Positions 883-12,415 of a stretch of DNA of 64,000 nt are shown here, in pieces; the first letter of the stretch is position 1, and each line of letters begins with the position of its first letter. The stretch is from NCBI RefSeq assembly GCF_003614185.1, contig NZ_KZ987724.1, forward strand, positions 4,614,608 to 4,678,607, given 5' to 3'. This DNA is from Paenibacillus aceti (GTDB lineage: Bacteria > Bacillota > Bacilli > Paenibacillales > Paenibacillaceae). The notes under the pieces were generated by a model that had not been told where the DNA came from, made no database searches, and worked only from the letters and a program-made list of their open reading frames with translations. The position numbers and the translations under genes were made by a program.

Positions 883-2736
883 TCACAGAATCGATGAATA
901 ATCCCCTGTCGAAAATCTAGCATGGACCTTCTCCAATTCTTGTATTACCTTTAGCGACTCTTCGTAAGCTCCGAGCTCCTTTAGTAAGTTAATGTCCTTA
1001 ATTTTATAAACTTGAACTGAACAATTCTCATTATATTCAGTGCATATATCTTTGTTTTCCTTCAGTTCCTTAAGTCTTTTTTTGCTTATTCGTTTAGGAT
1101 ATGGAGCCCAATCTTTAGTAATATCTAAATGCTCAAACATTGATAGTTCATCAGAAATAGAAGCAATTGAAGAATCGGGGGCTCCAGAATTCCCATAAAA
1201 AAATTGATATTTACAGAGGGAAAGATAATTTATTACTTTGTTTTCTTCATTTTCATAGCCAAGTCGATCAAGGTAATCTTCAATTTTAGGACCAACATAG
1301 AATCGATTAAATTGAAAGGGGTCTAATTCTTCATACATTCTGTACAGTCTGCCCTCCCAATCATAATTTTTAAAATAGTAGGTTCCATAGTCAGTATAAT
1401 AGATACTACTCTCGCTTCCCTTATCGCTATTAATAAAGCGTTTTAATTTGTCAAAGTTATTGCCCCACACTTCATTCCAAGATTGTCGAAGGGATTCTTC
1501 GGAACCTTCATCGTTTCTGAACTCTATACTTGTTACAAAGGCATAACAGAACGTGTAAATAGGAATATGAAGAAAACGAACCCATTGTGTGTCTTGAAGG
1601 ATCAGATTATCAAAGACAACTTCACAAAGGGCAGGATCGTTTTTCAGATAGTGATTATATATGTCACTCGATAAAAGCTCTGATGCACGTATCACGGGTT
1701 CTTCTCGATACATGAATAACTGATAGGTTTCAGCACAGAAGCCGACAAGGCTAGTATGTTTCAAATTTCTGTTTTGTTGAAATATATGTTGAATTAAAAT
1801 CATGCATAGACTACTTTCCTGTTTGGGGAGCTGTTCAAGATCTTGTAATGCTGTAAGAAGCAATGTAATTGACTCTTGAGTTTGTAAATAGTCATGAACA
1901 TAATGTGAGTGATTGTTTGTTAACGTTTCCTTTAACTCTTTTTTTAGATGAGTAGGAAGATTAGACCTAGTTATGAATTTTAAGATTTGCTCATCATCGA
2001 GCTCAAGCTCATTAGGTCCGAAAAGCCAATTTTCTGCATCTTCTTTTACAATCCCTAAAGACTGTTCTTTTTCATTTTTATAAATACTGTTATCTTGTTT
2101 AGCCATACTCTTTTTTTCTATTAAGAATGGTTTTCGGCCACACAAAGAGGCTACTTTCTCTCCAAATTGATATGTGTATCGGAGCCCAAAATGATGAAGT
2201 ATCTTTGGAATGTTATCGACTAGCATATCAAGTTCATACTCCATACATAAACCATCGAGTATTTCTATTTCAGCCAATAAGATATTTTTTATTTCTTTTT
2301 TAAGCTTTTCAGAATAAGTTTTATGGTAAATGGAGTACTCTTCTGGAAATACTTCCTGAAACTTTTCCATAGTAATATAATGATATACACTAAATGATTC
2401 ATTATAAAATTTATATAGAATATCTTTACCATCAAAAACCATTCCTTTTTCGATACAGAGAACAATAAAGCTAGGTAAGTTATGAAGATCTATATACTGC
2501 GCTTCAAGATTCCCATGCCCCATAGTTAAACAATAAGTTTTAATTTCATTTTCTAAAAAGTTAAAAATTTTAGGATGCAAATGAGGGTCACAACAACGTA
2601 ACAATTGAAAGAACCTATGGAGCTCTTCTTGCTTATTCGGTAAATCATCTAATAAATCGGGGCCCCAATTCCAACTGTCATCAGGATCGGTATGATAGCT
2701 ATAAGGATAATCCTCGTAATGTAATATACATTCCTC
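883..2736 (-). pseudogene. 3' part of the disrupted endonuclease-STAND NTPase gene
   Basis: This open frame runs on the minus strand from the IS junction at 2736 to the TGA at 883 (617 residues). Read alone it has no good start: the first usable codon is an internal TTG at 2604 without a ribosome site, and 44 sensible codons lie upstream of it, up to the junction. Its frame is the exact continuation of the 4525-6132 fragment once the element between them is removed (codons ATT-GAG-GAA-TGT across the join). The product is helical and charged, with no catalytic motif I recognise; in STAND proteins such a C-terminal half is usually the sensor or repeat region. I infer that this protein half is not translated, or only poorly, in the present state. 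Confidence 0.8.
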
Positions 2737-2739
2737 CCA

Positions 2740-3131
2740 CTATAAATTAATGTTTTCTTTCATTTGCTCACGTTTTCTTAGAATCTCAAACACGATGTTC
2801 TCAAGAGATGGGGATATCATGCTGTTATGACATATTTTTCTCGAGGAACCGGTGACGGGAATAAAGCCTGGAACACATTTTCCAATCTGTGGATGGTACC
2901 TATGATCGCACCTTGGATATCCACAATTCCCTCGACGGTTTACCCTCCCATGTCACACTGGGTCTATGCCCTCACATTCCTTCGTTCTACCTCTCAAGGG
3001 GTGGATGCCGCTTCTTGCTCCTTTACTGGGTCGTTGCCCTTATGATGAAAAATCTGCGGCTACTCCGTGCTTCTGTTTGTCGCGTTTGAAGTCTAAGCAC
3101 TGTGAAGCAAGATGAATCGTTAATGTTTGAA
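2740..3131 (-). ncRNA. Candidate bridge RNA region of the IS110-type element
   Basis: This stretch of about 390 bp downstream of the transposase has no credible gene; the small frames in it lack ribosome sites. In IS1111-type elements this end encodes the structured bridge RNA that pairs with target and donor DNA. On the plus strand, 2974-2981 reads ACATTCCT, identical to the target flank at 2728-2735 next to the core. That is the sort of match expected from a target-binding loop, but an 8-base match within 400 bases could be chance. Exact RNA ends are not visible. Confidence 0.4.
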
Positions 3132-4427
3132 TTAAGCAACCATCTGTAGCTGAGACTGGCGTACCGGTCCCAATACGTCATTTGCATTGTAGCGTATCTG
3201 TTTTGTTCCCAACGTATGCAATACTCGAATGAGTTTTCCACATAAGGCTACAATAGATTGTTTCTTCTTTAGCGGGTTCTGGGCTCGTTTCGTGTAATAG
3301 TGATGCAGCGCTTTAAATTCTGTATTTTTTGCCACCATGGGCATCATCGCACGGAACAGTAAAGCTCGAAGTCGAGACCGTCCCCGTTTGGTAATCGTGG
3401 ACTTCCCTTTCTTCTTCCCAGAACTGTTCTCCCTTAGATTAAAGCCCGCAAGCCGTATAATCTGCTGACTATGATTATATCCTTTGAGATCGCCTACCTC
3501 GGCCAGAAATCCAGCCAATGTTACGACTCCAACCCCAGGAACCGTTAGCATTTCTTCCGAACCAGGGATCTGTTCAAGCAGTTCTACCACCTGTCTCATG
3601 ATGTCGTCTATCTGCCGAGTAAACAAAGTATGCTGCTCCAGCAAGTTCTTCAATTCAATCTTGGCTGCCATTAAACCCTCTGTGAGGCCGATAGAGTCCT
3701 GAGCTGCTTGAACCAGTTTCTCTGCTCGCTTCATGCCAACCGCCCGTTTAACCTCTTGTTTCCACCGTTTCAAAACTGTGAAAGCTCCAAGTGTTACAAT
3801 TTCTTGCGGGGTAGGAAATTCTGCAAGCGTGATGAGAGAGGCTTTTCCTTCCCAGTCAGCAAACACGTTTTGATATTCAGGAAAGAACCGGTCGAGCCAA
3901 TTTTGAATCCGTCTTTGGACTTGACCCAGGTTTAACATAACCTTTTCTCGATGATTCATGAGGATGCGTAAATCCGCATAAACGCTCTTTGGAAGCCGGG
4001 GCTCCGAATAATGGCCGTTACGAACGAGATCTGCAATAACCTTGGCATCCTTGTAGTCGTTTTTCGTTGGTGAATTGTCTTCAAGTTCTTTACTCTTGCT
4101 AACATGATGAGGGTTTACGATAACTAGTTTAATGCCCTCATGCTGTAGAAACTCAGCCAGGGTAAACCAGTAGTGTCCGGTTGGTTCGATGCCGAAGATG
4201 ACGTCAGTCTTGGCATGTTGCCGTTGAAGTTCCTTCATCCACGATACTAGTTTTAACAAACCTGAACGGTCGTTTTTAAATACACAATCTTTTCCCAATT
4301 CGATCCCACGAAAATCGATCCCGCGTGCTACATGGGTTTCTTTGGCGATGTCTGCACCGATAACCAGTGTATTTTCGGTAATTTGTTCAATACGTTGATT
4401 CTGTTTCTTAGATTGTTTATACTTCAT
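3132..4427 (-). CDS. IS110-family transposase (DEDD RuvC-like plus Transposase_20)
   Basis: The 431-residue protein has the two-domain build of IS110 recombinases. The N-terminal RuvC-like fold shows IGADIAKETH near residues 23-32, then GIEPTGHYW and the KNDYKDAK segment that carries DEDD acidic residues. The C-terminal Transposase_20 domain shows TVPGVGVVTLAGFLAE and the RLAGFNLRENSSGKKKG segment that leads to the serine used in strand exchange. Length is normal and no frameshift is visible, so it may be active. ATG at 4427 follows AAGGAGG at a good distance, but that ribosome site is part of a stem (see 4431-4497). The enzyme is expected to work with the bridge RNA at the other end of the element. 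Confidence 0.93.
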   Translation of the reverse strand: MKYKQSKKQNQRIEQITENTLVIGADIAKETHVARGIDFRGIELGKDCVFKNDRSGLLKLVSWMKELQRQHAKTDVIFGIEPTGHYWFTLAEFLQHEGIKLVIVNPHHVSKSKELEDNSPTKNDYKDAKVIADLVRNGHYSEPRLPKSVYADLRILMNHREKVMLNLGQVQRRIQNWLDRFFPEYQNVFADWEGKASLITLAEFPTPQEIVTLGAFTVLKRWKQEVKRAVGMKRAEKLVQAAQDSIGLTEGLMAAKIELKNLLEQHTLFTRQIDDIMRQVVELLEQIPGSEEMLTVPGVGVVTLAGFLAEVGDLKGYNHSQQIIRLAGFNLRENSSGKKKGKSTITKRGRSRLRALLFRAMMPMVAKNTEFKALHHYYTKRAQNPLKKKQSIVALCGKLIRVLHTLGTKQIRYNANDVLGPVRQSQLQMVA

Positions 4428-4430
4428 ATT

Positions 4431-4497
4431 GAGCGTCCTCCTTCTAACTTAGGGAATGAATGTCGACCATTCGGAACCCAGCATACAGGAGACGCTC
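4431..4497 (-). promoter_or_regulatory. Hairpin hiding the transposase ribosome site
   Basis: On the minus strand GAGCGTCTCC (4497-4488) can pair with GGAGGACGCTC (4441-4431) with one bulged G. The second arm contains the Shine-Dalgarno sequence of the transposase at 4427. Transcripts that start outside the element would carry both arms and bury the site; transcripts starting inside the loop would not. This is the usual logic by which insertion sequences avoid being activated by outside promoters. Folding is inferred from the bases only. Confidence 0.55.
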
Positions 4498-4524
4498 TTT
4501 TTATTCAAACCTCAAATTAATTCA

Positions 4525-6132
4525 TTACAGGAATGGCTCCTCAATTAATTCAATGACTTTTTTACTGGAGTCCTTGGAAAAGTGTTCAAATATGAACTGA
4601 ATTTGATTGTAATAGCCACAGTACTGTAGAAGCTCGGGAATAAATTGATCAGTATGTTCTTCAATATGTGAATATAGAAAATCTTGCACGGAAGGCATAC
4701 TAAACTTCAATAAAACTTCGTCTTCTTCATCACTATAAAAAGACTTAATCATTGTTTTTTCAAGCTCGGATATACTGTCACTTAGCTTTTTTATCTTCAT
4801 CCGGTTAGTACGAGTTTCTATATATTTTGCATAGCAGCGCTTCATATCTTCTAAGTACATAGGTGTTGAAGAGATTAGTAAAAGCAGGGCTACAATCTGT
4901 GCATCTTGAGAAAGATCCAAAAAAATATCCTCCCAGAATGCACCGGGATTATCAAAATAATCACAAAGACCAAAAAAATAGTCTTCAGGGGTAGTTTCTT
5001 TATCCAGTGCTTTGTTTAGGTAAAGGGCAAGCACACGGGGGTTATAGTTTTCATGATTGATTATTTGACTACAGTTTTGGAATAGATAAGTAACATATTC
5101 ATATTTTAAATTGGATGCATACAGGTGCTCAAATAATATATTAGCTTTTTCAACATTGCTGTATCCTTCAACTGTACAAATTAGAGCATATTGATCTAGC
5201 GTATCCTTCAACATAGGTTGTTTTTGTAGTCCTTGACGAAGAATATATTCTCTTGTTGTTAAAATGAGGCGTTTGTTTCCTCTAGAGTCTACTATATTCT
5301 GAATGAGTTTATTGAGACGGTTTTCATCATTTCTATGAGTACTTTCATTATGAAAAATACTCCCCCAGAAATCATCTAGTATAATAACTTGTTTTTTATC
5401 GTCCTCTAACATACTATAAACATCTCTAATAGAATTCCCCCATACCAAACCATCTAGATTGTCTGGCTGTAGGTATGCCAGTGCCAAAAGGTAGGCTATT
5501 GTTGTTTTTCCAACGCCTGGCTCTCCTGAAATTACAATCACATGGTTTTGACACCATCTTTGTAACGCTTCACGGTAGATTTGAGTAGGGGCAAATGTAT
5601 TAGATGCTTTTAATGCCTCTTTAAGCTCCTCATCAGATTCCATGTATAGTGAGCTGTGTATGGATCTTCTAAGGAATTTTTCAAGTACATTCATACTTAG
5701 CTGCCAAAGTTTTGGATGAACTGATTCTATCCATTTGTATTTAGGTTCTTCTAGTAGTCTGTTAATGTCTGTTTTGCTTAAAATATCATTAGTGCTAGTA
5801 ATAAACCCATCAAATAAATTTATAATCTGTTCCTTCTCGTTAGGTTGAAATTCCATTGAAACGCCCAAAATATATCGATCGGGTTTTAATTTACGCACCT
5901 TAGGTAGCTCAATGTTTTTTAAGCTCTTAAAAAGTTGTGTGAAATCTTGTTTATACCGTTTTGCTTGGATAACAGTTCTCTTGCCATGGCATATATAAGA
6001 GCCGTCAATTCCAGAATCGCGCCCTTCTTTGTACATTTCTACAAATAAGCCTTCCCTTACTTGAACGATATCACAAACAAGCTTTTCAAATTCGAGTGGT
6101 TCCAGCAGTTCATGAAAGTCATAATTGGGCAT
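4525..6132 (-). pseudogene. 5' part of the endonuclease-STAND NTPase gene, cut by the IS
   Basis: Codons 1-530 are native; the last codons (EPFL, TAA at 4525) come from IS sequence. Residues 5-100 resemble an Mrr/type IV restriction-endonuclease fold: GID43G, then Q56-A-K58 in VIQAKRY, the D...QxK pattern of PD-(D/E)xK nucleases. A linker is followed by a P-loop NTPase of STAND type (nSTAND3-like): Walker A GEPGVGKT at 203-210 and Walker B VIILDDFWG at 249-257. The start is ATG 6132 behind AGGAGG. The membrane-protein gene ends 97 bp upstream, so they are probably co-transcribed. Family knowledge says nuclease-STAND fusions often act as phage sensors that cut DNA when activated. The truncated product keeps nuclease and ATPase but loses the probable sensor half. 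Confidence 0.82.
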
Positions 6133-6196
6133 ATCTAACTCCTCCTAGGAAAATAATCAGTTCAACTTTATTAAATTCCAACTATAGAGAGGGTGA

Positions 6197-6230
6197 AGTT
6201 GCTACGTATTTAGGGTAGCAACTCTTTTTT
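6197..6230. other. Stem-loop between the membrane protein and the NTPase gene
   Basis: A 9-bp perfect stem (AGTTGCTAC 6197-6205 with 6215-6223) is followed on the plus strand by CTTTTTT. In that direction it has terminator form, but no plus-strand gene ends here. For the minus-strand operon the U run is on the wrong side, so it may be an RNA processing or stability element between the two genes. Confidence 0.4.
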
Positions 6231-7101
6231 ATTTCGTATTAGGCCTTCTAATACTTACCCTTCGAACACTTTTTTTATTGTTATTAGTAGTCAATAGCGA
6301 AGCGAGAAAAACCACTAAGAAGTATACACCTGAAATAGCTATTAACAGATTTTGAAATTCACCCCAAATTGAAGAGGCCCTTCCCGTGTCATTTGCAATA
6401 AATAAATTAAGTGCAATAAGTAGTAATTGAACTGCAGAGCTATCTATGTATGAGTTAGGAATAAGTTCATTAATTAATATAATTTCAGCATATAAAGTAA
6501 CTAATAAATTTATTAACCACATCAGTGCAACTTTGTAGTTTCCATTTATACTTTTTGGTATAAAGCCAGGGACGTTAATTGTATAGAACATATATTTGAA
6601 TATTGTAATGTGATTTATATACATACAGATTAATAAAATAAATGAGTAGGGAGTGGTAATATGAATAATTCCTGTAAGTTGATATCCAATAGGAAGTAAT
6701 GGAAGCATGAGACTTAAAAGAGGAATATCTCTGGATTTTGTCTGGGTAAAAGAAAAATAATAATCTATTAACTTTTCCCAAAAATTATAATAAATAATAG
6801 CTGAGTACATAATAAAAGTTGTGAAAAATACGGAGGTAATAATTGAAAGCCACCAAATAAGGTGATTTTGTACTAATAGAAATGTACCTATAAGAGGCAA
6901 CATTAAGAATACGATAAAAGCAATCTTTGCTATTCCAGACCTGTTGCTCCAGAAATATCTCACAGAGATAATAAGATTTCTCTTTAAAGATATTTTTATA
7001 GAAGTTTTACTTATTTTTTTAGGTGTGTAATTATAAAAAGTAATAAAAATGGAGAGTATGCAAGCTATAATTATAATAACGAAAGTTAGTATTTGTTTCA
7101 T
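6229..7101 (-). CDS. Multi-pass membrane protein of unknown function
   Basis: The 290-residue product has about six to eight hydrophobic segments: one at the N-terminus (residues 3-24), a pair around 60-105, and others around 125-145, 150-175, 190-210, 220-240 and 250-275. The last 20 residues are very basic (KKSVRRVSIRRPNTK), probably facing the cytoplasm. I recognise no transporter or enzyme motif. ATG 7101 follows AAGGAGG. It sits between an Xre regulator gene and the endonuclease-STAND gene on the same strand, so it may be a membrane partner or effector in that system. Base composition is strongly AT-rich like its operon neighbours, suggesting acquisition by transfer. Confidence 0.75.
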   Translation of the reverse strand: MKQILTFVIIIIACILSIFITFYNYTPKKISKTSIKISLKRNLIISVRYFWSNRSGIAKIAFIVFLMLPLIGTFLLVQNHLIWWLSIITSVFFTTFIMYSAIIYYNFWEKLIDYYFSFTQTKSRDIPLLSLMLPLLPIGYQLTGIIHITTPYSFILLICMYINHITIFKYMFYTINVPGFIPKSINGNYKVALMWLINLLVTLYAEIILINELIPNSYIDSSAVQLLLIALNLFIANDTGRASSIWGEFQNLLIAISGVYFLVVFLASLLTTNNNKKSVRRVSIRRPNTK

Positions 7102-7222
7102 AATGCCTCCTTGATTATTTTTGAATAAAGATGATAATTAAGCCTCTTAATATTGCAATCCGAGCGAAGGATCCAATAATGTCAGTGTTTCTTGATGTTT
7201 ATGACAAAGAATATTAAATAAC

Positions 7223-7444
7223 TTATTCATTCCCCTCCACCAACTCAATAATCTCCCGGATATCACTAATATCCAGAGCCTCCGCGATTCTTTCAATATG
7301 ACTGAAGTTGATGCTCTCACGCTTACCGTTGGCGAGTTCACTTAGTGCAGCATGCCGGACATCGGAAAGTCTGGATAACTCCCTCAAGGATATTTTATAT
7401 TTCTTGGTTAGCTCCCCGATTTTCACGACAACTTTCTTTCCCAT
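7223..7444 (-). CDS. Xre-family helix-turn-helix regulator
   Basis: A 73-residue single-domain DNA-binding protein. The HTH spans about residues 8-62: IGELTKKYKISLRELSRLSD is helices 1-2, and VRHAALSELANGKRESINFSHIERIAEAL contains the recognition helix and helix 4. ATG 7444 is chosen because GAGG lies 8 bases before it; an in-frame GTG at 7453 overlaps that ribosome site. Two matching palindromes (7483-7496 and 7520-7533) lie just upstream in the divergent promoter region and are its likely operators, implying self-regulation and control of the island genes. Confidence 0.9.
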   Translation of the reverse strand: MGKKVVVKIGELTKKYKISLRELSRLSDVRHAALSELANGKRESINFSHIERIAEALDISDIREIIELVEGNE

Positions 7445-7475
7445 TTCAATCACCTCTAATCAATTTATTCCCAGC

Positions 7476-7533
7476 TTGACTATACGCATAAGCGTAACGT
7501 ACAATGTTTGTATGGGTGGTACGCATATACGTA
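7476..7533 (+). promoter_or_regulatory. Divergent promoter with twin Xre operators
   Basis: Two palindromic sites of the same type are present: TACGCATAAGCGTA (7483-7496) and TACGCATATACGTA (7520-7533), 37 bases centre to centre. The first lies between a -35 TTGACT (7476-7481) and a -10 TACAAT (7500-7505), 18 bases apart, which would drive the plus-strand gene. A repressor bound there would block RNA polymerase. The xre gene reads away on the other strand, so the sites could control both directions. Confidence 0.7.
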
Positions 7534-7615
7534 ACATATTTATTTGAGATTATTAGCAAGGGAAGTAGTAGTTCTTGATCTATACTTTGCTACATTTAGA
7601 AAGGAGGCCTACCCC

Positions 7616-7909
7616 ATGCCACCCTTACTCGAATCCCTATACCACGGCCATCTGAACCCCGAGGAGCAGGTGGTCCCTAAAGATCCGGAATATCGCCAGT
7701 GCAGAAGAGAGATTTCTGAAGTTATGGAAGCGTGGAATAAGAAGTTGTCCGCTGAGGAGTTTGCCGAGTTGGAGGACCTTATGAATTTGCAGTATAAAAT
7801 TCAGGGGCTGGAGATGTCAGCGGCTTTTAGGTACGGCTTTAGGCTAGGAGCGGCCATGCTTATTGAGGTACACTTCGGGGACGGGGTGGAGCAGAGGGAC
7901 AAATCGTAG
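7616..7909 (+). CDS. DUF6809-like small protein
   Basis: A 97-residue acidic, probably all-helical protein. The pattern LLESLYHGHLNPEEQ, PKDPEYRQ, then a helix pair ending in AFRYGFRLGAAMLIEV matches what I know of DUF6809, a common small protein in Paenibacillus and Clostridia with no known function. ATG 7616 sits 9 bases after AAAGGAGG; the longer open frame from 7544 has no ribosome site. It is transcribed away from the xre gene from a promoter overlapping the twin operators. Confidence 0.8.
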   Translation: MPPLLESLYHGHLNPEEQVVPKDPEYRQCRREISEVMEAWNKKLSAEEFAELEDLMNLQYKIQGLEMSAAFRYGFRLGAAMLIEVHFGDGVEQRDKS

Positions 7910-7929
7910 AATAGATTGATCCAATGATT

Positions 7930-7970
7930 AAAATGCCCGGGTGCTTTGACACCTTTCGGGCATTTTTTCT
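7930..7970 (+). terminator. Terminator after the DUF6809-like gene
   Basis: AAAATGCCCG pairs with CGGGCATTTT, with the T run in the 3' arm, 20 bases after the stop at 7909. Typical intrinsic terminator. Confidence 0.85.
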
Positions 7971-8115
7971 GTTTTTCCACAAGGTAATCTTTATCCTTAC
8001 ATGTCGGTTTGCCATAGAAATAGGAAGGATTTCCCTAATTATTTGTCGAAAATTATCCCCAAAGACTAGAACTTCAGATGCATAGTACGTTGGCATGATG
8101 ATGAACTACACTTCG

Positions 8116-8308
8116 CTAAAAGTGAGTGTTCAAAAAGTCTGGTTTTCAGCACCGAGAAGGTTGGATGAAGCTAGGGACTGAGGAGCGGAGAGTACGTAGT
8201 TTGTACGTGAGCACCGGAGGGCCCGGCTGAATTCAAGATTCGATGCCGAATAGCTTACCTGATTCACTTCGTGATCAAAAGCGGACTTTTTGAACAACCT
8301 CTAAAAGT
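8116..8308. mobile_element. MITE-like element with 13-bp terminal repeats and 8-bp duplication
   Basis: The core at 8127-8296 (170 bp) is bounded by perfect 13-bp inverted repeats TGTTCAAAAAGTC / GACTTTTTGAACA. Just outside, CTAAAAGT occurs at 8116-8123 and again at 8301-8308, as expected for an 8-bp target duplication. The inside has no gene but has further short inverted sequences. From memory, very similar segments recur in Paenibacillus genomes; I cannot check that here. It ends 22 bases before the start of the STAND gene at 8330, so it sits in that gene's leader and may change its expression. Confidence 0.75.
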
Positions 8309-8329
8309 AAACGGAGGAAGCCATAGGTT

Positions 8330-11300
8330 ATGAAGAGTGTCATTATTGAGGAAATTATTAGTGGTCTGGGCAAGTCGGCTGCAGACCTTGTGAAGGATAA
8401 AATAATGCAGTCAAAATTTGTCCGCGATCTGAAGGAAAAGTGGGTTACAGATAACTATCACAATAAAACTGTAAATATATTTAAGGCCGCGGTGATCGAT
8501 GCGAAAGATGCTGTGAAGCTGCCCGATGATTTGTTTTGTGATTTGCTTGAGGATTCTGTCAATCGCGATGAAGTATTCCGTTGGATTCTTGAAGGCATAA
8601 GGCCTGGACAGATGGATAAGAGCAGGCTTAATACGACAGCGTATATGGAGTCCTTTCCAAGGTATCAAGACCATATATACCCTTTCTTCGAATTAATACT
8701 TGACCGTTTAGAACATTATAAAAAAACGCATTGGAGCCCGGAGTTTCTGGAAATACTGCATCAAATAGAGGAGATGAAGACGGCAAATCATGAGGGGTTC
8801 AAGTCGTTATCCGATAAGCAGGATAGGATGGAGTCCAAACAAGATAAGATAGCAGCTAAACAGGATCAAATGTATGAACTGCTTCATGACAAACTGGAAG
8901 ACCAAAAAAAGAGGTATACTCCGGAATGGTTTGAAGGTAAAGCTAGAGAAAACATAAAGAATATGGGGGAGCGTTACTCTGAAGAGTTAAATGTGGAAGT
9001 ACAGACATCGTTAATGATCGATGCGATCGAGCTGAATGATAAATTCAGGAGCCATATGATAGAGAGGTGCGACAGCATATTAGCAGGCGGCTTCTTCCGA
9101 AATATAGACCAAGTAGACCAAGTGATCACTACAAGTCTGGAGAAAATAAAAGAAATAAAGCGGGACATGGAATCGCTTAATGATCTGAAAGTATGCCTGC
9201 CGCGATTGGAACAATGCGTTAAGGACTTGAAAAGTTATCTTGATAAGAATCCGCATAATATCGGCAGCGGGCCATTAAGATACGAGGTCAACGACTTCTA
9301 CTCCAAGTACGTGGACAATGATAACAGTCTTCTTCGAATAGCGTTGAATCCTTACGTAGTGATATCTGGAGAGGCAGGCGCCGGTAAGTCTCACTTCATG
9401 GCAGATCAGGTACGGAAGAGAATAAACGCCAATAAGATGAGCATTTTTCTGTTAGGTCAGTTATTTCATTCAGAGGATACCATTCTGTCACAAATCAGAA
9501 AGCAATTAGTCATTGCAAGTGATGAAGAGATGGAAGCTGTATTTGAAGTGTTTAATGATTACGGGGTGGCTAAGGGGGAGCGCGTCGTCATTTTCATTGA
9601 TGCTCTCAACGAGGGAAAAGGTAAACATTATTGGCTGAATTCGCTGGGCGGCTTCGTCGAGAGGCTAAGAAAGCTTAACAACATAGCCTTAGTGATGAGT
9701 GTGCGAGATACCTATGAGGATGACATCATACCTGAGGGATTCTATAAAAGAAATAACGTGAACAAATATAAATTTGAAGGGTTCGATGATCTGGATCAAG
9801 CCATTCAGGAGTTCTTTAATTACTATCAAGTGCCGCTGGTTTTAAATGACTATCTAAATTATGAATTCAAAAATCCTCTATTCTTGAAAATGTACTGCAT
9901 GGCATACGATCAGGTTAATAGATCCGGTACGGAGAGCATTGAAGGTATTTTTAATAACTATTTCAAAAAGATCAATCAAGACTTGAAATTAAGGATCGAG
10001 AACTACCCGAAGTTCGGAAATTTGGTCGTTGAAGCTTTGTACTATTTTATTGATACCAAGCTTAAGCACAAGGGCAGCGAATCCTACCTTTTATACGAAG
10101 TGGCTTCCAGGGAAGTAAATCAGTCCATGATGCACCATGGACTAGGCATCAATTTCTTTGACGAGTTAATTAATGAGAAGATCATTACAGTGAACCCCAT
10201 AACCCAAAACGGGGAAGAAAAGAATATTGTCTATATCGCTTATGAATTATTTGAAGAGTACATCACCGCCAAGAAGATTATAGAAGCGAATAAGGTTCAC
10301 ACCTATACTAAAGCACGGGACCTAGAAGATTTCTTCTCGGATCAAAACCGCTATTTTCATTTGCTCTCCGATCGGCGCTCGAATCAAGGAATATTTCAAG
10401 CACTAGCCGTACAAATACCAGATGCGGTATCACCAGAGTTTATAGAGGAATTCGAAATGTATCATTGGCCGAAACGCATACTGAAGTACGAGGAGATTGA
10501 CTTTAAAGAGGCCTACTATAATAGCCTTACTTGGAGAAGACCGAGAGGAATCAATGGAATATCGCATTCGTATATATTAAATGAATCTCTATATAAGAGC
10601 TATTCTGAGCCATATCAAATGTATGAATTCTGGGATATAGTACTAAAATATACGATTGTAAAAGATCATTACTATAATGCGAATTTTCTGTACGAACAAT
10701 TAATTGAACTTAAGCTTGACGAATTTAACGCTTTCTGGACGGTTTATGTCAGTAAACGCTTTGATCAGAATGACAGCTTCAAGACGATCATGAAGTGGGC
10801 ATGGAAAGAGCATGCGGACCCATCTCAGCTGGATGATGAATCCATACAGTTATTAGGGATGAATATTGCCTGGTTTATGGCAAGTACATGTGATCGCGTA
10901 AGAGATGTTTCTATGAAAGCCATGGTGAAGCTCTTTACGAACCGGATCGATATTTTGACAGGTATTATCAAGAAGTTTGAAAGGGTTCAAGATGCCTATA
11001 TATTAGAAGCGCTATTTTGTGCTGCCTATGGATGTGTGATGAATACTCGCTGCATGGATCAAGTAGAAGGCTTGGCCTTATTTATCTATGAGGAGTTTTT
11101 TGACGGGAAGGAAATTATTCCTCATGCCATGATTCGCAACTATTTGACTGGGATCCTGGAATTTGCACTGTCTAAGGGGCTTTGCAGGAATATTCATGCC
11201 GATGACATCAAACCGCCGTTTCAGAACCGGTATGTATACCATGAAGTCAAGCAGGATGTAATTGACGATCTTAGAAGAGAACCCTCTGATGCAGAAATTA

Positions 11301-12415
11301 GTAGGTTGGATCCGTATGATTCTTACCAGAGCCGTGTTCTAGATTTAGAGATGTATTTTACATATCAAACCAACATCATTGATGATCTTCAAGCCTGTTA
11401 TACTAACGTTCCTAATCAATACGGGGATAGCATCCATTTTCAATCAGTAGAAATCATTGATCAGATCTTGCCAGAATGCAGGGGCAATTTCGTTCGAATG
11501 GTGATCAAGGAAATCTTTCAGATGGGCTACAATTTTATTAAATTCGGACAATTTGACTTAAGTGCTGATCATCACCAGATTGACAGCTTAGGACAGAAAT
11601 ATGAATGGATAGCCCTAAATAAGGTTCTCACTATTTATTTGGACAGCAAGCAATATATATGCCAGAGATTCTCCAAAGACTTTCCGGTAAAGTTCGAGGG
11701 GGTCTGGCAGTTTACATTCTTCAGGAAAATGGATCCAAGTATCGACTATTTTAGCCCTTTTGACACACGGGATTATCAGCATAAAAGAACAATAATGACA
11801 ATTGAGGATTTATGGAGTCAGTTTCGTTCGTATGCGGAGAAATCACTATATCAGATCGATTGGATCGCTGTGAATCGGATTGAATATACGGTGAATAATG
11901 AACTTCACAGTACAAGACCTTTTCTGATCAATAATAGTGATATAGAATCATTTAAGCGTTATATACAAGATCCTAATAATCTGCAGCAGCAGAAACCGTT
12001 TGAGGATTTATATGTAGGAGAAATTTATTGGTCAGAGGCTTATAAGAGCCTGTTAAATGAATTGAATACAGGAAACTGCAATAAATTGTATGATATGAGG
12101 ATCACTGATACCTATTTATGGGATATCAACGATGGTGCCATGAACAACTATATTGAATTCAGTATTTTATCCCCGATGATGCTAGCGGAATTAAAGCTTT
12201 CAATTGGCAGCCATGTCTTTGAGCTGGTCGATGAGAATGGTGAACTAGCAAGCCTGCAGTTATATGAACATAATTACGACAACCTCCTCCTATTGAGGAA
12301 GGATAAAGTAACCAGATACCTAATACGTTCAGACAAGGTGATAGGTTGGCCTGTTATAAATGGCGAGGATACTAGAATGATCATTTTTGATGGGTTACAG
12401 TTCCGGATCGATTAA
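8330..12415 (+). CDS. Large STAND-type NTPase, candidate defence protein
   Basis: A 1,361-residue cytoplasmic protein. Residues 1-140 are helical without a recognised fold. Residues 155-195 form a coiled coil with a repeated KQDxM/I pattern (DKQDRM, SKQDKI, AKQDQM). The P-loop NTPase begins near 340: Walker A GEAGAGKS at 347-354 and Walker B FIDALNEG at 422-429, the form common in NACHT/STAND proteins including Avs-type phage sensors. After about residue 600 comes a long region with no enzymatic motif, plausibly the ligand sensor. ATG 8330 follows GGAGGAA. It may act alone, as many such proteins do, or with the neighbouring operon. No nuclease, TIR, SIR2 or protease effector is recognisable, so function is inferred from architecture and context only. 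Confidence 0.8.
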   Translation: MKSVIIEEIISGLGKSAADLVKDKIMQSKFVRDLKEKWVTDNYHNKTVNIFKAAVIDAKDAVKLPDDLFCDLLEDSVNRDEVFRWILEGIRPGQMDKSRLNTTAYMESFPRYQDHIYPFFELILDRLEHYKKTHWSPEFLEILHQIEEMKTANHEGFKSLSDKQDRMESKQDKIAAKQDQMYELLHDKLEDQKKRYTPEWFEGKARENIKNMGERYSEELNVEVQTSLMIDAIELNDKFRSHMIERCDSILAGGFFRNIDQVDQVITTSLEKIKEIKRDMESLNDLKVCLPRLEQCVKDLKSYLDKNPHNIGSGPLRYEVNDFYSKYVDNDNSLLRIALNPYVVISGEAGAGKSHFMADQVRKRINANKMSIFLLGQLFHSEDTILSQIRKQLVIASDEEMEAVFEVFNDYGVAKGERVVIFIDALNEGKGKHYWLNSLGGFVERLRKLNNIALVMSVRDTYEDDIIPEGFYKRNNVNKYKFEGFDDLDQAIQEFFNYYQVPLVLNDYLNYEFKNPLFLKMYCMAYDQVNRSGTESIEGIFNNYFKKINQDLKLRIENYPKFGNLVVEALYYFIDTKLKHKGSESYLLYEVASREVNQSMMHHGLGINFFDELINEKIITVNPITQNGEEKNIVYIAYELFEEYITAKKIIEANKVHTYTKARDLEDFFSDQNRYFHLLSDRRSNQGIFQALAVQIPDAVSPEFIEEFEMYHWPKRILKYEEIDFKEAYYNSLTWRRPRGINGISHSYILNESLYKSYSEPYQMYEFWDIVLKYTIVKDHYYNANFLYEQLIELKLDEFNAFWTVYVSKRFDQNDSFKTIMKWAWKEHADPSQLDDESIQLLGMNIAWFMASTCDRVRDVSMKAMVKLFTNRIDILTGIIKKFERVQDAYILEALFCAAYGCVMNTRCMDQVEGLALFIYEEFFDGKEIIPHAMIRNYLTGILEFALSKGLCRNIHADDIKPPFQNRYVYHEVKQDVIDDLRREPSDAEISRLDPYDSYQSRVLDLEMYFTYQTNIIDDLQACYTNVPNQYGDSIHFQSVEIIDQILPECRGNFVRMVIKEIFQMGYNFIKFGQFDLSADHHQIDSLGQKYEWIALNKVLTIYLDSKQYICQRFSKDFPVKFEGVWQFTFFRKMDPSIDYFSPFDTRDYQHKRTIMTIEDLWSQFRSYAEKSLYQIDWIAVNRIEYTVNNELHSTRPFLINNSDIESFKRYIQDPNNLQQQKPFEDLYVGEIYWSEAYKSLLNELNTGNCNKLYDMRITDTYLWDINDGAMNNYIEFSILSPMMLAELKLSIGSHVFELVDENGELASLQLYEHNYDNLLLLRKDKVTRYLIRSDKVIGWPVINGEDTRMIIFDGLQFRID

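Follow-up and report, generated by a model that had tools for sequence, protein, structure and literature searches.

An IS110-family element interrupts a candidate defence gene of the long Mrr-nSTAND3 type in Paenibacillus aceti

Avs4 proteins combine a Mrr-like nuclease, a STAND NTPase and a repeat sensor. Avs5 is described, in passages of PMC12931631, as a combination of a SIR2 domain, an nSTAND3 NTPase and C-terminal repeats. PADLOC further holds PDC-S73, a candidate single-protein defence family; in the literature searched, we found no paper naming this family and no anti-phage test of it.

On the side of mobile elements, the insertion sequence IS900 sits between the ribosome-binding site and the start codon, a preference similar to the one reported below. 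The parts of PMC8141618 at hand place most IS900 sites outside coding sequence and hold no statement on a ribosome-binding-site preference. In elements of the IS1111 group, a long non-coding region lies behind the transposase gene and a short one before it, as outlined in sections of PMC11208160 and PMC11187229. The same sections describe bridge RNAs, which recognise target and donor through base pairing of their loops, and according to PMC11208160, IS1111 elements appear to carry such an RNA in their right end.

Here, we analyzed a window of 64,000 nucleotides (the whole stretch of DNA under study) from the genome of Paenibacillus aceti, in which an IS110-family element has divided one gene into two minus-strand frames (Table 1). 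Both frames are present as the first-pass annotation had described. The frame at 4525-6132 (minus strand, 535 aa) has its own ATG; the other one, open between 2736 and 883 on the same strand, lacks a start, with no codon of start type among codons 1-44 and no ATG before codon 72. The 5' frame continues three codons into the element and ends with a stop at 4525. The motif TCCTC, which had been noted at both inner ends, was found at 2732-2736 and 4538-4542; it occurs 68 times on the plus strand of the window, and its presence at both ends therefore means little alone. The decision comes from homology.

Table 1. Features of the interrupted gene and of the inserted element (window coordinates)
Feature	Position	Strand	Remarks
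5' piece of split gene	4537..6132	-	532 codons up to the element
3' piece of split gene	883..2733	-	616 codons and stop; without usable start
IS110-family element with IS1111-group features	2734..4536	-	1,803 bp; edges from seven different flanks
Transposase, 431 aa	3132..4427	-	DEDD catalytic domain and Transposase_20
AGGAG target motif	4537..4541	-	adjoins transposase-side end of the element
GGGAG at other element end	2734..2738	-	in this copy, GAATG of the gene comes next
Core conserved within the 398-nt non-coding region, predicted guide (bridge/seek) RNA	2856..3074	-	alignment and fold

The 3' part was searched in 395 genomes of the family, with matches in 16, and in 393 genomes of the order (partly overlapping the family set), which added four more, giving 20 matched genomes in total. 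Uninterrupted homologues over both fragments are present in four close relatives, namely Paenibacillus lautus, P. glucanolyticus, Saccharibacillus endophyticus and P. luteus, as single frames of 1,158, 1,162, 1,153 and 1,156 codons (L031, L032, L033 and L034). Identity to the N- and C-terminal pieces amounts to 82.6% and 72.8% in P. lautus, 81.1% and 70.8% in P. glucanolyticus, and 60-62% and 44% in S. endophyticus and P. luteus. Both pieces are collinear also in the more distant long forms L036, L039, L040, L042 and L043. Judged by the mechanical frames in the window only, two separate genes could have come to flank an insertion sequence by chance; the single frames in four relatives refute this, the five distant forms likewise speak against it, and we assign it next to no probability. 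These data establish that both fragments belong, in collinear order, to one gene that is whole in relatives, in support of the annotated split.

In the tblastn comparison with P. lautus and P. glucanolyticus, residues 1-530 of the N-terminal piece are followed by one codon and then by residues 1-617 of the C-terminal piece; the residues at the join read E-Q-Q-C in both relatives versus E-E-E-C in the window pieces. Since the two closest relatives carry one extra codon, the interruption measures 1,803 bp (2734-4536, or an equivalent register). Removal of 1,806 bp (2737-4542), as previously proposed, does join the frames in phase, but the size was too large and dropped one residue. The pre-insertion protein is 1,148 aa long (1,149 codons with stop), the same length as the intact P. 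lautus protein, in place of the annotated product of ~1,147 residues (530 + 618 codons including stop). With this one-codon correction, the observation of the first-pass annotation is confirmed and its interpretation supported.

Across the 20 matched genomes, no independent intact gene of the 3' part was seen. Copies separated from the 5' part are remnants or flank a break in the frame, and those standing alone in G174, G176 and G448 are fragments. G430 and G469 carry the 3' part in open frames of 1,154 and 1,169 codons, for which frame length alone was read. Within the genus, the 3' part was found in one of 41 genomes, that of P. aceti itself, and protein-mode searches of plasmids and phages gave no match. 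Open frames with the N-terminal part come in two sizes, ~756-805 and ~1,148-1,205 codons, and broken copies and weak matches fall between and outside these. All five loci recovered in a scan of viral contigs are short forms.

As to the genomic neighbourhood, a frame beside the split gene (8330-12415, plus strand, 1,361 aa) is Avs2-like, with a PADLOC Avs2 match at 3.9e-182 and an NCBIfam Avs2 score of 579.7 bits, below the cut-off of 1000; its residues 1-180 lie outside the Avs2 match. A DDE transposase frame (Pfam DDE_Tnp_1) occupies positions 19-792 at the left edge of the window, and the split gene therefore adjoins a second, different insertion sequence. Of six relatives scanned, four (L031, L032, L035, L045) have a tmRNA gene close to the long form or what remains of it, as though genes of this kind were acquired at this location; the 64,000-nt window contains no tmRNA gene. 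Directly upstream of the long form in L036 are McrC-like and McrB-like genes (7792-9114 and 9099-11084), both below curated cut-offs, and L037 has similar frames by eye. Behind the long form in L038, a gene at 3694-5409 carries Mrr_cat near its C-terminus (22.5 bits, cut-off 21), possibly representing a two-gene form of the system; similar frames were seen by eye in L039, L041, L042 and L043. In L044, a TOTE conflict-system gene (5679-8141) adjoins a remnant of the 3' part.

Aside from the element, both pieces are free of stops and frameshifts. Comparison with the P. lautus copy gave dN/dS values of 0.088/0.91 (~0.1) for the N-terminal and 0.15/0.83 (~0.18) for the C-terminal piece; the gene was therefore under purifying selection, with its C-terminal half changing faster. 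As the seven copies of the element in this genome are identical, the break looks recent, and with its C-terminal half cut off and left without an own start, the gene is most likely dead. Alternatively, the break may not be fatal, the 535-residue nuclease-NTPase acting alone or a C-terminal piece from an inner start working together with the N-terminal half. The first piece does keep its start, nuclease residues and Walker motifs, and the terminal GGGAG of the element lies directly before GAATG. However, the ATG behind this GGGAG is out of frame (10 codons), the earliest in-frame codon of start type is TTG at codon 45, followed by ATG at codon 72, and none of the 20 genomes with a match has the halves as separate intact genes. 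We regard a functional remainder as improbable and an inactivated gene as the preferred reading.

Broken or remnant copies are found in 6 of the 16 genomes of the family search, own genome included. P. brasilensis (G085, L035 at ~6736-7927) carries an independent DDE-type insertion with an 11-bp direct repeat at its ends and a further frame break, and G174 and G176 hold remnants. Frameshifts are present in G205 and G263, two single-contig genomes in which they may be sequencing errors. The order search adds a remnant (G448) and a broken copy (G478), besides the long open frames of G430 and G469. This accumulation could mean that loss is favoured, the long form being costly (e.g. through self-activation) and insertions and frameshifts repeatedly selected or tolerated. 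However, one of eight short forms is also not full length (G063 with 529 codons, by count alone; G385 at a contig end and the weak partial matches in G138, G324, G220 and G257 were left out), and the difference between long and short forms was not significant in this weak test (Fisher p 0.35). Considering in addition the possible sequencing errors, and that plain decay of accessory genes would suffice, we consider favoured loss rather unlikely.

In agreement with the annotated IS110-type interruption, the transposase matches DEDD_Tnp_IS110 and Transposase_20 in Pfam (116.7 and 74.4 bits, both above cut-off) and transpos_IS110 in NCBIfam (225.7 bits, cut-off 140), placing the element, by its DEDD-type transposase, in the IS110 family. 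Features of the IS1111 group are the non-coding ends, 398 nt behind and 109 nt before the transposase gene, and an imperfect subterminal inverted repeat (ATGAATTAATTT / ATAAATTAATGT) with 10 of 12 bases paired, within the 7-17 bp of the group. The element is one of seven copies in its own genome, with 100% identity over the element. Comparison of the seven flanks showed, on the transposase strand, AGGAG in front of each copy and TAGTGGGAG at its end; the length of 1,803 bp is counted with GGGAG as the element's end.

Something similar to the element occurs in 13 of 41 genomes of the genus, own genome included, in some as short matches alone; at most 8 candidates were scored per genome, and copy numbers are to be read as "at least". 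The comparison of insertion sites comprised 25 sites with both ends from five genomes (7 from the own genome, 8 each from G010 and G015, and 1 each from G024 and G019), leaving out two contig-end fragments of G035 (L104, L105) and shorter matches. All eight copies of G015 share one sequence, and in G010 seven of eight are nearly identical; the set comprises 25 insertions, but no more than five genomes. GGAG is common to the transposase-side edge of all 25 sites, preceded by A in 23 and followed by G in 15, and by its sequence it resembles a Shine-Dalgarno core. As a test for a ribosome-binding site, we asked for a start codon 3-13 nt downstream that opens a frame of 35 codons or more; 13 of 25 element sites passed, versus 44 of the 161 plain AGGAG occurrences in the window (Fisher p 0.019). 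The element sites therefore show a preference for true ribosome-binding sites without being confined to them; among the seven own copies, two (L001, L007) pass this test and the site in the split gene fails it.

Alignment of the non-coding regions of 11 distinct elements, six types of which were folded, delimited a conserved core as the predicted guide RNA. All six types contain UAAAGGAG (UAAGGAG in L103), AAGGAAUG and UGGGAG; in the copy studied here, UAAAGGAG is located at 3018-3025, AGGAAUG at 2975-2981 and UGGGAG at 2945-2950. These words resemble the target and both element ends, as would be expected of a bridge RNA. An Rfam search of the predicted guide stretch yielded no match; a SNORD31 match below the gathering score was taken as chance. 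The split gene held AGGAGGAATG at the insertion site, which agrees with UAAAGGAG at 6 of 8 positions (range 5-8 over the 25 sites, thus not the best), and it is the only site of the 25 with G at position -6. The element may have hit the gene because AGGAGGAATG occurred inside its coding sequence, and the split gene is probably an off-target hit.

The Mrr-like nuclease and STAND NTPase proposed for the product were both recovered above cut-off in the 5' piece by Pfam (Mrr_cat 25.7 bits, cut-off 21; nSTAND3 148.9 bits, cut-off 27.2). It keeps the Mrr-type nuclease residues D39, D43, Q56 and K58 and the Walker A motif GEPGVGKTT, and nuclease and Walker residues are conserved in ten intact proteins. 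Among the best 25 of 26 Pfam families matched, there is no SIR2 domain in this piece. The PADLOC profile PDC-S73 matches the 5' piece at 1e-110 and the intact P. lautus protein at 6.1e-105, where residues 1-746 correspond to profile positions 1-725 of 752 and ~400 residues extend past the profile at the C-terminus. Among the PADLOC matches at E 0.01 of the five long forms scanned, there was no Avs4 row. The 3' piece is a long, mostly helical C-terminal half, for which Pfam, PADLOC and NCBIfam returned no match. Among 150 of 222 candidates scored in the own genome, no other nSTAND3 domain exceeded the curated cut-off, and six weaker matches lay below it.

The intact P. lautus protein was modelled from an alignment of 11 rows (four intact long forms, the two window pieces and five short viral-contig forms), with a mean pLDDT of 71.2 and mostly poor values at residues 737-1003. 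The best Foldseek match of this model was Avs4 bound to portal (4.8e-07, 1,270 columns, TM-score 0.20), a structure whose PDB title gives the portal as ligand. SAMD9, the SIR2-STAND protein Avs5 and a plant resistosome came next, with TM-scores that are low throughout (0.14-0.20), and after these the chaperone HSP104 (6.6e-04). VIA-align rows cover mainly residues 146-513 and include Apaf-1, NLRP3, a STAND-TPR protein and many other AAA+ proteins, and therefore say little beyond "STAND-like". The full-alignment profile gave 43 matches to PDB sequences at E 1, mostly P-loop stretches (best 0.0016). Modelled alone, the C-terminal half was poor (mean pLDDT 60.7) and matched no fold at E 0.001; the term "sensor" therefore rests on architecture. 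Two Tako8 matches of the C-half profile in the PDB (9e-07) were taken as chance, as no stretch passes alone.

Altogether, we consider it likely that the 1,803-bp IS110-family element recently inserted into a defence-type gene of 1,148 residues, including the guide and the Avs-like model that go with it. The protein most likely belongs to the Avs-like sensors of abortive infection and lost its activity recently; we infer an anti-phage function for it, and the Avs2-like neighbour is in line with this model. Intact relatives would work like Avs proteins: the C-terminal half would sense a phage protein, the nSTAND3 NTPase would then oligomerise with ATP, and the N-terminal Mrr-type nuclease would cut DNA and abort infection. 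The element would be steered to Shine-Dalgarno-like sequences by an RNA that contains UAAAGGAG and derives from the region behind its transposase gene. More tentatively, and with the odds rather against it, both sides may be read jointly. The long Mrr-nSTAND3 proteins might constitute a separate Avs type, in which an Avs5-type NTPase is joined to the nuclease and to an own C-terminal sensor of a phage protein. In the lineage of the element, the guide RNA might read the Shine-Dalgarno sequence itself, so that the element lands between ribosome-binding site and start codon and returns GGGAG at its end, nearly silent except where the motif lies inside a gene, as here.

That an insertion sequence splits a defence gene is in itself nothing unusual. 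Here, two apparent genes turn out to be one, and the strain provides a natural knock-out for a candidate defence protein whose intact relatives can be tested. The 25 mapped sites of an IS110-family element have a near-universal translation signal as their target, so that the guide prediction is directly testable. Worth following are the long Mrr-nSTAND3 family and the element's Shine-Dalgarno-like target.

Compared with the described systems, the element shares with the IS1111 group the IS110-type transposase, the short left and long right non-coding ends, the subterminal inverted repeat and a constant target motif; it differs in that its target is the Shine-Dalgarno-like GGAG and its guide RNA is predicted. 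The protein has the Mrr-type nuclease and nSTAND3 NTPase of PDC-S73, but the long forms exceed that profile by ~400 residues at the C-terminus. With Avs4, its best fold match by model, it may share the order of nuclease, STAND NTPase and helical C-terminal half, whereas the TM-score is only 0.20. With Avs5, chains of which are among the best fold matches, it shares an NTPase of the nSTAND3 kind (148.9 bits versus 27.2), whereas the effector is Mrr-type and not SIR2. As Avs5 consists of SIR2 and nSTAND3, the split-gene protein therefore pairs an NTPase of the Avs5 kind with a Mrr-type nuclease.
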